A DNA stretch of 64,000 nt from Kutzneria buriramensis (GTDB taxonomy: Bacteria > Actinomycetota > Actinomycetes > Mycobacteriales > Pseudonocardiaceae): contig NZ_QUNO01000001.1 in the NCBI RefSeq assembly GCF_003387475.1, positions 372,001 to 436,000 of the forward strand. Direction: 5' to 3'. Below the pieces are notes generated by a model, which was not told where the DNA came from, did not search any database, and worked only from the letters and a program-made list of their open reading frames with translations. The position numbers and the translations under genes are program-made. Shown here piece after piece: positions 36,256 to 49,099 of this stretch; position 1 is the first letter of the stretch, and every line of letters starts with the position of its first letter.

Positions 36256-36309
36256 TGCACACAACACCGTGACGGCGGCCACGTGGGGTCACCTGTAAGA
36301 CTGGGGGTC

Positions 36310-37632
36310 GTGACGATCGAGCAGGCAGCCAGCGTTGACACCTCGCGTGCGCTGTTCGACCGAGCGGCCAAGGCCACGCCCGGCGGGGTCAACTCGCCGG
36401 TGCGGGCGTTCCACTCGGTCGGCGGCACGCCCCGATTCATGGTCCGCGGCGAGGGCCCGCATCTGTGGGACGCCGACGGCAACCGCTACGTCGACCTGGT
36501 CAGCTCGTGGGGCCCGATGATCCTGGGCCACGCGCACCCGGAGGTCGTGGCGGCGGTGGCGAAGGCGGCGACCAGCGGCCTGTCCTTCGGCACGCCGACC
36601 GAGGGCGAGGTGCTGCTGGCCGAGGAGCTGATCGGCCGGGTCGAGCCGGTGGAGCAGGTCCGCCTGGTCAACTCCGGCACCGAGGCGACGATGAGCGCGA
36701 TCCGGCTGGCCCGGGGCTTCACCGGCCGGCGCAAGATCGTCAAGTTCGCCGGCTGCTACCACGGGCACGTGGACGCGCTGCTGGCCCAGGCCGGCTCGGG
36801 CGTGGCGACGCTGGGCCTGCCGACCACGCCCGGCGTCACCGGCGCGCAGGCGGCGGACACGATCGTGCTGCCCTACAACGACGTCGCCGCCGTGAAGGAG
36901 GCCTTCGCGGCGAATCCCGGCGAGATCGCGGCCATCATCACGGAGGCGGCCGCCGGCAACATGGGCGCGGTGGCCCCGGACCCCGGCTACAACGCGGCGC
37001 TGCGCGAGGCCTGCCACGCCGACGGCGCGCTGCTGATCATCGACGAGGTGATGACCGGCTTCCGCGTCTCCAAGGCCGGTTGGTACGGCCTGGAGCACGT
37101 GGCGGGCGACCTCTACACGTTCGGCAAGGTCATGTCCGGCGGCCTGCCGGCGGCGGCGTTCGGCGGCCGCGCCGACGTGATGGCGAGGCTGGCGCCGAGC
37201 GGCCCGGTCTACCAGGCCGGCACGCTGTCCGGGAACCCGGTGGCGGTCGCCGCCGGCCTGACCACGCTCAAGCTCGCCGACGACGAGGTGTACCGCAAGC
37301 TGGACCGCAACGCCCGGCTGCTGGGCGAGCTGTTCGGCGACGCGCTGACCGCCGAGGGCGTCGCCCACCAGGTGCAGTACGCCGGCAACCTGGTCAGCGT
37401 GTTCTTCACCGACGAGCCGGTGCGGGACTACGCCGGCGCGCAGGCCGCGCAGACCTGGCGCTTCCCGCCGTTCTTCCATGCCCTGCTGGAGCGCGGCGTC
37501 TACCCGCCGCCGAGCGCGTTCGAGGCGTGGTTTGTCAACGCCGCCATGGACGACGCCGCGTTCGAGGTCATCGAGCAGGCTCTGCCGCACGCCGCCGCGG
37601 CCGCCGCCGCGGCCAAGGAGGACGGTCAGTGA
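36310..37632 (+). CDS. hemL: Glutamate-1-semialdehyde 2,1-aminomutase
   Basis: PLP enzyme of 440 residues that converts glutamate-1-semialdehyde to 5-aminolevulinate, the step between hemA and hemB. Motifs are [46 protein letters not shown] and the PLP lysine Lys273 in [18 protein letters not shown]. The GTG start fits the family. It ends in an Ala-rich tail with its stop overlapping the first of four tandem 77-bp repeats. Gene order onwards matches Rv0524-Rv0530. Confidence 0.97.
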
Positions 37633-37709
37633 CCGAGCTTGCGAGGGCACCATTCGGTGCAGTGGCCTGGGTCGTAGACCCTCCGAGCGCCAGCGAGGTG
37701 GGACTGTGA
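37629..37709 (+). CDS. Mini-ORF 1, 26 codons, in the 77-bp repeat
   Basis: GTG 37629 overlaps the hemL stop (GTGA). It encodes a 26-residue peptide starting [10 protein letters not shown] and ending PPSASEVGL. Its TGA overlaps the GTG of mini-ORF 2. Whether the peptide is made is unknown; the coupling geometry is seen directly. Confidence 0.35.
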
Positions 37710-37786
37710 CCGAGCTTGCGAGGGCACCATTCGGTGCAGTGGCCTGGGTCGTAGACCCTCCGAGCGCCAGCGAGGTGGGACTGTGA
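37706..37786 (+). CDS. Mini-ORF 2, 26 codons
   Basis: Identical to mini-ORF 1, in a different reading frame because the unit length is not a multiple of three. It is preceded by GAGGTGG at about 6 nt and linked by GTGA overlaps on both sides. Confidence 0.35.
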   Translation: MTELARAPFGAVAWVVDPPSASEVGL

Positions 37787-37863
37787 CCGAGCTTGCGAGG
37801 GCACCATTCGGTGCAGTGGCCTGGGTCGTAGACCCTCCGAGCGCCAGCGAGGTGGGACTGTGA
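37783..37863 (+). CDS. Mini-ORF 3, 26 codons
   Basis: Identical to mini-ORFs 1 and 2 and again frame-shifted relative to them. It has the same ribosome-binding site and GTGA links. Confidence 0.35.
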   Translation: MTELARAPFGAVAWVVDPPSASEVGL

Positions 37864-37940
37864 CCGAGCTTGCGAGGGCACCATTCGGTGCAGTGGCCTG
37901 GGTCGCAGACCCTCCGAGCGCCAGCGAGGTGGGACTGTGA
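37860..37940 (+). CDS. Mini-ORF 4, 26 codons, coupled to the phosphatase gene
   Basis: Same peptide with one Val-to-Ala change (GTA to GCA at 37906). Its TGA overlaps the GTG start of the histidine phosphatase gene, so ribosomes ending here could restart on the real gene. Confidence 0.35.
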   Translation: MTELARAPFGAVAWVADPPSASEVGL

Positions 37941-38566
37941 CCCGCACCGTCGTGCACCTCATGCGGCACGGCGAGGTGCACAACCCGACCGGCGTCCTCT
38001 ACGGGCGGCTGCCCGGCTTCCGGCTGTCGGCGCAGGGCGAGAAGCAGGCGCTGCGGGTCGCCGAGTACCTGGCCGACCGGGACATCGTGCACGTCGTCGC
38101 GTCGCCGCTGGAGCGGGCGCAGCAGACCTCGCGCCCGATCGTCGACTCGCACCGCCTGGAGCTGGTCACCGACGACCGGCTGATCGAGGCGGACAACAAG
38201 TTCGAGGGCCTGAAGGTGGCCGTCGGCGACGGCGCGCTGCGCTCCCCGCAGCACTGGCCGAAGCTGTGGAACCCGTTCGAGCCGTCCTGGGGCGAGCCGT
38301 ACCTGAAGATCGCCCACCGGATGCTCGGCGCCGTGCACAGGGCCCGCGCGGCCGCCGCCGGCCACGAGGCGGTGTGCGTGTCGCACCAGCTGCCGGTCTG
38401 GACGGTCCGCCGGTTCCTCGAGGGCAAGCGCATGTGGCACGACCCGCGCAAGCGCCAGTGCTCGCTGGCCTCGCTGACCTCGCTGACGTTCGAGGACGAG
38501 CAGCTGATCCGGATCAGCTACTCGGAGCCGGCCGGCAGCACCGATCCGAGGGTGACGGGGGCATGA
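37937..38566 (+). CDS. Histidine phosphatase family protein (Rv0525-like)
   Basis: Protein of 209 residues of the phosphoglycerate-mutase-like family. The catalytic His is in VVHLMRHGEVHNPTGVLYGR. VASPLERAQQTSRPI and the second His in AVCVSHQLPVWTVRRFLEG complete the site. The conserved place between hemL and the cytochrome c maturation genes matches Rv0525. The substrate is unknown. The GTG start lies at the end of the 77-bp array and its ribosome-binding site is part of the last repeat. The stop overlaps tlpA by 4 bp. Confidence 0.9.
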   Translation: MTRTVVHLMRHGEVHNPTGVLYGRLPGFRLSAQGEKQALRVAEYLADRDIVHVVASPLERAQQTSRPIVDSHRLELVTDDRLIEADNKFEGLKVAVGDGALRSPQHWPKLWNPFEPSWGEPYLKIAHRMLGAVHRARAAAAGHEAVCVSHQLPVWTVRRFLEGKRMWHDPRKRQCSLASLTSLTFEDEQLIRISYSEPAGSTDPRVTGA

Positions 38567-47956: not shown

Positions 47957-49099
47957 GTGGCCGCGCCGGCCGAGGAGGAGCAGCTCGGCGTCAGCAGCCT
48001 CGAACTGTTCTTCGACCTGGTCTTTCGCCTCGTTTGACGACACAGCACGATCACGCAGCTGACGTCGGTCCTGTCGCACGAGCTCGACCTGGCCGGGCTG
48101 GCGCGGATGGGGCTCCTGCTGGCCGTGATCTGGTGGATGTACGGCGGCTACGCGTGGCTCACCAACGCGGTGCCGCCGCGCAAGACGTCCACGCGCGGGC
48201 TGCTCGTCCTGGCCATGGTCGCCTACGTGGTGCTGGCGATCTCGGTGCCGAGCGCGTTCGAGGCCAACCGCTGGGCGTTCGCCGCGGCGTACCTGGTGAT
48301 CGTGCTCGTGCACTCCGGGGTCTTCCTGACCACCGCCCATCCCAGCAACCGGCAGGGCACTCCGCGAGTGCTGCCGTGGAACCTGACCGTGCCGCTGCTG
48401 ACCCGGCCCGGCACCTTCGACCTGCGGCCGTCGCCCAAGAGAAATCGGCACAGCGTCGAGCGGCACGGGCTGGTGCTGACCCGGCCCGGCACCTTCGACC
48501 TGCGGCCGTCGCCCAAGAGAAATCGGCACAGCGTCGAGCGGCACGGGCTGGTGCTGATCATCGCGTTCGGCGAGTCCGTGGTGGCCATCGGCATCGGCGA
48601 GGCCGGGCTCGAGGTCACGCCGGGGCTGATCGTGGCCGCGGCGCTGCCCATGGTGACGCTGGCCGGGCTGTGGTGGGGATACTTCGCCGGGGACAGCGAG
48701 AAGCGGGCCGAGGCCACCCTGACCACGGCCGAGCCGTTTCGGCGCACCCGGCTGTCACTGATCGGCTACGGCCACTGCTACCTGCCGCTGTTCGGCGGCA
48801 TCATCGTGCTCGCCGCCGGCGTGAAGACCGCCGTGGCGCATCCCGAGGACGCGTTGTCCGCGCCGGCCGCGCTCGCGGTCGGCGGCGGCATGGCGCTGTA
48901 CCTGGTCGGCGACGTGCTGCTGCGGCTCGGGTCGAACTGGACCCGCTGCGTCGCCGCCGTGCTCGCCGCGGCCAGCACGGTGGTGGGTGCGACCGAATCG
49001 GCCGTCGCCCAACTCGCCGTGCTCGCCGCGGTGGTCGTCCTGCTCGTGGCGGCCGAGCACCTAGCCCGTCAGCCCGGCGGCGTGCCGTCCTCACGGTGA
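47957..49099 (+). pseudogene. Disrupted low-temperature-requirement A (LtrA)-like membrane protein gene
   Basis: GTG 47957 opens a frame with the LtrA signature GVSSLELFFDLVF, but a TGA at 48035-48037 ends it after 26 codons. The same frame resumes at once (ITQLTSVLSHELDLAGLARMGLLLAVIWWMYGGYAWLTNAVPP) and runs to 49099. Relative to relatives, about five codons containing the stop are inserted. A 78-bp in-frame tandem duplication replaces a membrane segment before HSVERHGLVLIIAFGESVVAIG. Either this is a decaying gene or translation restarts downstream, for example near 48107, giving an N-truncated protein of about 330 residues. Confidence 0.75.
48401..48556 (+). repeat. 78-bp tandem duplication inside the ltrA-like gene
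   Basis: Two identical 78-bp units (48401-48478 and 48479-48556) encode a 26-residue hydrophilic segment twice, beginning TRPGTFDLRPSPKRNRHSVE. The duplication keeps the frame. Perfect identity points to a recent event. Confidence 0.95.

Follow-up and report, generated by a model that had tools for sequence, protein, structure and literature searches.

A MIRU-like array of four overlapping mini-ORFs between hemL and a phosphatase gene in Kutzneria buriramensis, and the dispersed family of its unit

In a stretch of 64,000 nucleotides of the Kutzneria buriramensis genome (the window), four head-to-tail 77-bp units lie between hemL and a histidine-phosphatase gene (37629–37936), and their unit is a dispersed family, more than a local repeat. 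Likened by the description of how a MIRU works, not by sequence or descent, the array is fairly clearly MIRU-like, and we consider it probable that it is a locally multiplied copy of a MIRU-type mobile mini-cistron whose downstream gene is translated largely by coupling. MIRUs, which many mycobacteria have, are presented in a 2025 review (PMC12548453, citing Supply 1997) as apparently mobile sequences whose insertions lie at start codons and whose internal ORF is coupled to the gene at −4 nt. An earlier, sequence-only reading of the window had known of no described case of such a relay; in the light of that review, the statement does not hold.

Tandem Repeats Finder places the array at 37629–37942 (period 77, 4.1 copies, 99% match), in agreement with the ORF coordinates (Table 1). 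Every unit is a 26-codon GTG...TGA frame, and GTGA overlaps join hemL to unit 1, the units to each other and unit 4 to the phosphatase gene: the hemL frame ends with its TGA inside the first GTGA, and the TGA of the last unit (37938–37940) overlaps the phosphatase GTG. The four-unit relay proposed in the sequence-only reading is thus real, while its "four identical peptides" describe units 1–3, which are identical, and not unit 4, where a single T to C change turns VVDPP into VADPP. The GAGGTGG that it had put about 6 nt ahead of each GTG does precede every one of them, at a closer distance, with GAGGTGG ending 4 nt and GAGGTG 5 nt ahead. We searched for the unit with R1, a model built from an alignment (A1) of 57 units that had been picked for an intact coupled frame; R1 favours such units and its E-values are rough. 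The array is the sole significant R1 match in the window (two of the four overlapping units are given), all other matches having E ≥ 0.17. A search of 37500–38100 against Rfam returned two weak matches only, CRISPR-DR29 and Scr5676, and both identities were taken as chance, their scores being far below the gathering scores.

Table 1. Features of the hemL/phosphatase junction, in window coordinates
Feature	Position	Strand	Evidence or remark
hemL (class-III aminotransferase)	36283..37632	+	ORF; Pfam Aminotran_3, 2.1e-82; start codon choice uncertain
Unit 1	37629..37705	+	Mini-ORF 37629–37709, 26 codons; R1 96.7 bits
Unit 2	37706..37782	+	Mini-ORF 37706–37786; same as unit 1
Unit 3	37783..37859	+	Mini-ORF 37783–37863; same as unit 1
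Unit 4	37860..37936	+	Mini-ORF 37860–37940; one base changed (Val to Ala); R1 100.3 bits
Proposed 5' hairpin, unit 4	37860..37881	+	Covariation in the family; equivalent place in units 1–3
3' hairpin, unit 4	37904..37939	+	Covariation, shuffle and slide controls, fold z-scores; equivalent place in units 1–3
GAGGTG, Shine-Dalgarno-like, for the phosphatase GTG	37926..37931	+	Sequence; present in each unit
Phosphatase gene (histidine phosphatase superfamily), coupled to unit 4	37937..38566	+	ORF; PF00300, 1.2e-33

At the far end of the phosphatase gene, its TGA and the ATG of the next gene, which we take to be TlpA-like, overlap as ATGA (38563–38566), a free site of the kind that the element targets. 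Elsewhere in the window, a hydrophobic 330-codon ORF (48107–49099) holds a perfect 78-bp direct duplication (48396–48557; 2.1 copies, 100%) that is in frame (26 codons) and shows no resemblance to the 77-bp unit.

A BLAST search of the own genome with one unit as the query gave 51 matches at E ≤ 10, of which the lowest-ranking were short and weak. R1 found 59 there at E ≤ 0.01 and matched all seven genus genomes, with 85, 81, 74, 31, 20, and 7 matches in the other six. At E ≤ 0.001 and with the own genome included, R1 matches were present in 50 of 120 genomes and 29 of 46 genera in a sample of the family, and in 46 of 150 genomes and 24 of 56 genera in a sample of the order. Among phosphatase loci fetched from named relatives, 3 of 80 had an R1 match at E ≤ 0.1: Kutzneria sp. 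CA-103260 carries two units at the same hemL/phosphatase junction, Nocardia albiluteola has one unit elsewhere in the locus, and the weak match of Rhodococcus rhodnii (0.024) may be chance. The two closest phosphatases, 93% and 89% identical, both come from Kutzneria. Viral spread of the unit was considered and rejected, one exact degenerate pattern of the main subfamily giving 0 matches in viral_contigs.

The coupled junction is a property of the family. In the own genome, we read 50 copies at 36 loci, against 59 R1 matches, as loci repeating the same arrays were read once; three short partial BLAST matches (L040, L049, L050) were left out for having no profile hit at E ≤ 0.01. In 43 of the 50 copies, a frame terminates in the RTGA with which the next unit or frame begins, with periods of 71, 74, 77, 80 or 83 nt, and 7 are without it. 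Across all loci fetched by that stage, 123 of 140 distinct profile hits were distinct intact units, with periods of 77 (89 units), 74 (11), 80 (8), 83 (7), 71 (5), and 65 nt (3), and 17 lacked an intact coupled frame. The rebuilding of the RTGA stop/start overlap and of a ribosome-binding site by every copy, which the sequence-only reading had seen in the array, thus extends to the family; a unit scattered without GTGA junctions had been named there as the result that would refute the relay, and the opposite was found, as the copies are scattered and mostly keep their junctions. The array is beyond chance because the unit recurs dozens of times in the genome, mostly with matching junctions, and because in relatives, hemL and the phosphatase gene meet in a simple GTGA overlap that has no unit.

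As the 123 intact units were selected for their open frame, the raw length of the R1 matches is a fairer test of frame. Among the matches listed outside the own genome, 107 of 119 lengths were divisible by three and 12 were not, and the same was true of 36 of the 48 listed matches with a length other than 81; these counts carry no P value and related copies are not independent. Departures from the coupled frame take several forms. The second tandem unit of one own-genome locus (L010/L159; C4:553266–553347) has seven G instead of six near its end, which puts its mini-ORF out of register with the RTGA so that it reads on to 561 nt. Units in two relatives (L163 in G001 and L176 in G005) end in GCGA instead of GTGA; with this change, they lose the coupled stop/start and their mini-ORFs continue past it.

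Sorted by distinct flanks, the intact units fall into 109 arrays: 98 single, 7 double, 2 triple, one of four, and one of five. The view of a local tandem array is thus right for the four copies here and not for the unit at large. A frame of at least 100 codons was open downstream of 102 of the 109 arrays vs. 36% of 2339 control RTGA sites, and at least 100 codons were open on both sides of 76 (70%) vs. 7.8% of the same controls; drawing the arrays from intact units favours this result, and the control sites may overlap between loci. All 20 proteins sampled, 10 downstream and 10 upstream, had Pfam matches. Some copies (L030, L036, L042, L045) have almost no open frame upstream, and because of such cases we see the start codon, not the operon junction, as the common factor.

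Comparison of sites across the genus, with G000 as the own genome and G001–G006 as the others, revealed occupied and empty states of the same junctions. A comparison of copy number between these genomes found four units at the phosphatase site in G000, two in G006, one in G002, and none in G001, G004, and G005, where the empty junction is a plain GTGA overlap; in G003, the start was unreadable and the fetched stretch had no R1 match. The insert is thus absent in three of the five relatives with a readable junction. At the regX3 site of G000 a unit is found, and a search of 22 other genomes showed it in just two of them, G001 and G004; the gene was identified by a 393-bit match to the solved M. 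tuberculosis RegX3, compared with 208 for the next best, and has a histidine kinase upstream. The cbi site, with CbiM upstream, is occupied in G000, G001, G004, G005, and G006 and empty in G002 and G003. A site that we call crr-like from its protein (L025) is occupied in G000, G001, and G006 and empty in seven other genomes, and the L045 site is occupied in G000 and G001. Since relatives lack the insert at several of these sites, sequence comparison indicates that the element has moved; because the patterns of occupancy differ from site to site, gains or losses appear to have been repeated. Upstream of the L045-type gene in G006 (L285), the junction retains a short sequence resembling the element's 3' end (gtgccgcaGTGAGC) with the rest absent, and this may be a deletion scar.

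The start tetramers of these sites suggest an insertion rule. At the crr-like site, the seven empty genomes have GTGA, and the three occupied ones have it at the 5' end of the element, with ATGA at the gene. The two empty genomes of the cbi site have ATGA, and four occupied ones have it at the 5' end, with GTGA at the gene; the copy of G004, with GTGA at the 5' and ATGA at the 3' end, is an exception. On the strength of these tetramers, the old one appears to stay at the 5' side and the element to bring the new start, clearly so at two sites and with the one exception. The L045 site agrees in part, its empty genomes having ATG and not ATGA, and two further sites were uninformative. A duplication of the RTGA target would suit the copies with like ends, which are the majority (89 G–G and 6 A–A of 114 units), but fails at the crr-like and cbi sites, whose two ends are unlike and whose 5' tetramer is that of the empty site. 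Of the 114 units with a pyrimidine at position 22, 113 pair it with the first base of the 5' tetramer (98 G–C, 15 A–T, 1 A–C), a count that leaves out nine units with an A at this position, mostly of another register.

Covariation supports a hairpin in the 3' half of the unit, over the next ribosome-binding site and start. The fold runs arm-CC-GA-GC-loop-GC-GA-GG-arm and encloses GAGGTG and the next RTG. For its analysis, we took the 102 of 123 units with a recognisable core, removed the 83-bp class (leaving 67 distinct arm pairs) and retained one unit per right arm (50). In this sample, 251 of 350 cells were paired, compared with a mean of 184 in shuffles (sd 7.5, maximum 213; 0 of 5000 as high). 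Shuffling ignores relatedness; the slide control, which keeps it, gave 73% paired in register vs. 29–50% when slid by 1–4, although a hairpin found on these very sequences tends to beat its slid versions. Fold z-scores averaged −1.97 for the last 40 nt (65 units; 72% below −1) and −0.22 for the first 26 nt, which is no energy signal for a hairpin at the 5' end. The 5' hairpin that we propose has the GTGA tetramer at its foot facing positions 19–22, tandem G·A mismatches and CTTG as its loop; of its 294 cells, 232 pair where 198 are expected (sd 3.5, maximum 211), and the covariation lies mainly at positions 1–22 and 5–18. RNAalifold on A1 recovered parts of both hairpins, with 15 pairs, 8 of them changed on both sides, and a covariation term of −1.3.

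There is a modest sign that it is the sense strand that folds. At positions 3–9, A·C cells, the antisense wobble, numbered 9 vs. 24.5 in the shuffled expectation and G·U cells 37 vs. 46; the raw counts of 65 G·U and 10 A·C overstate the strand sign because RTGA has an invariant T. When 12 whole units were folded one at a time, their z-scores were mixed (−2.76 to +0.87). Predicted accessibility of the start codon did not separate occupied from empty sites at the single junctions compared, the probability of being unpaired being 0.00 (own), 0.00 (L221), and 0.96 (L222) at the occupied and 0.04, 0.15, and 0.71 at the empty ones.

These observations are consistent with the following course of events. 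An element of about 77 nt would enter at a start-codon tetramer RTGA and leave an open frame of 22–28 codons running from that RTG to a TGA that overlaps the RTG of the following gene; this gene would stay translatable through a chain of coupled cistrons. The element may move by way of hairpin ends in single-stranded DNA, the manner reported for IS200/IS605 (PMC6006769). In the mRNA, the 3' hairpin would shut off the start codon of the next cistron together with its ribosome-binding site, and a ribosome reading the mini-ORF would open it and terminate on the next start codon. At the present locus, the element may have entered the GTGA overlap of hemL and the phosphatase gene within the genus and then multiplied to four copies. 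A ribosome would end hemL on the first GTGA, restart, read unit 1, and repeat this at each GTGA until the phosphatase. Ribosomes could be lost at each junction, and more copies could then lower or even out expression. We infer the action of the hairpins in mRNA, the restart at every junction, the local multiplication, and any effect on phosphatase level from sequence.

One alternative, that a tandem duplication of the ordinary kind occurred in GC-rich sequence where frames are open by chance, can appeal to the control RTGA sites, more than a third of which are open for 100 codons anyway; the spread of copies that share these junctions, the empty sites of relatives and a covarying hairpin leave it next to no credibility. 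The product of the mini-ORF could also be a functional peptide of about 26 residues whose repetition serves dosage, given that the frame is open in most copies and changes length mostly in threes. Yet a search for codon-level constraint in the main subfamily (39 units) found 20 synonymous changes among 67 distinct variants, a share of 0.30 vs. 0.25 expected, with 0.27 and 0.31 in the other two frames, and the arm sequences, which are part of the frame, vary while their pairing persists. Lack of such constraint argues against a peptide function, which we regard as very improbable; the mini-ORF seems to be kept for openness and register, not for its residues. Selection of the array as a regulatory copy-number switch at this particular junction is somewhat less improbable, though still unlikely: copy number does vary between species, and a mycobacterial tandem repeat correlates with fpg1 mRNA (PMC2734929), but nearly all sampled arrays are single copies and most relatives with a readable junction do without the insert.

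A more serious contender is that the hairpins act only as DNA, as single-strand-type transposon ends of the IS200/IS605 or REP-like kind, and that coupling merely made the insertions tolerable. IS200/IS605 ends are described as hairpins, with the target tetranucleotide flanking the left end and the final tetranucleotide at the right end (PMC6006769), and the present element may be similar in its paired arms, indicated by covariation and folding energy at the 3' end and by covariation at the 5' end, in its foot tetranucleotide, in the pairing of position 22 with the 5' tetramer, and in having the old tetramer on the 5' and the new one on the 3' side at the crr-like site and in four of the five occupied genomes at cbi. 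It differs in targeting a start-codon tetramer and in carrying an open frame and a ribosome-binding site; the placement of that site inside the conserved 3' hairpin is not required by a role in DNA only. A Y1 transposase (PF01797) was searched for in the seven genus genomes, and the only match, in G002, covered 33 positions at 23.8 bits (cut-off 23), just above that threshold, and the own genome and five of the six others gave no match; a Y1/RAYT transposase as the mobiliser was dropped because none was found in the own genome. We give the DNA-only explanation perhaps one chance in a few, and prefer a MIRU-type mini-cistron that is both mobile and coupled.

Several properties of the family agree with the description of MIRUs: it is short (main length 77 bp) and scattered over dozens of loci, its tandem copy number at one locus varies between species, and empty and occupied sites put its insertion at start codons. 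MIRUs likewise have 77-bp units, among other lengths, at dozens of loci in variable tandem numbers, and an internal ORF with a 4-nt overlap with the downstream start. In the M. tuberculosis complex, the senX3-regX3 spacer contains between one and seven 77-bp units (PMC2453075), and the same junction is occupied in Kutzneria G000, G001, and G004; according to one paper, MIRUs in this spacer are confined to M. leprae and the M. tuberculosis complex (PMC4213456). In M. bovis, the 77-nt leader of parA is one class I MIRU, and the M. marinum ortholog is leaderless (PMC4128351). The units studied here differ in being found in Kutzneria and other genera, and the hairpin covariation and insertion rule are described here for these units. 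Small ORFs joined to a gene by an RTGA tetramer are also over-represented in mycobacteria, but are reported as ORFs of leaderless transcripts and not as one repeat family (PMC4633059). VNTR3239, too, is a tandem repeat ending at a start codon, and the length of its region correlated modestly with fpg1 mRNA in M. tuberculosis strains; its repeat units are of 55 and 79 bp, and no mechanism was established there (PMC2734929).

Literature searches with a fragment of the unit sequence returned nothing related, and those with a mycobacterial repeat fragment gave no match. In the open-licence literature searched, we found no description outside mycobacteria, nor any explanation of the movement of MIRUs or of their position at start codons. 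The spread beyond mycobacteria appears new, as do the covarying hairpin and the insertion rule.

A broader idea, which we hold only tentatively and judge somewhat less likely than its opposite, is that of a class of mobile elements aimed at start codons. An internal base or short guide would pair with RTGA, entry would occur directly behind it, and the 3' end would bring a hairpin-locked ribosome-binding site and an RTGA start that are opened by translation of the mini-ORF; MIRUs would then be the mycobacterial branch of an order-wide class. If this is true, an insertion would cost the host little, because the mini-ORF would start at the old start codon. Typing by MIRU-VNTR is in wide use, and MIRU-like units outside mycobacteria, at senX3-regX3 as well and with a supported hairpin and a readable insertion rule, would offer another system for testing both the movement and the translational relay.
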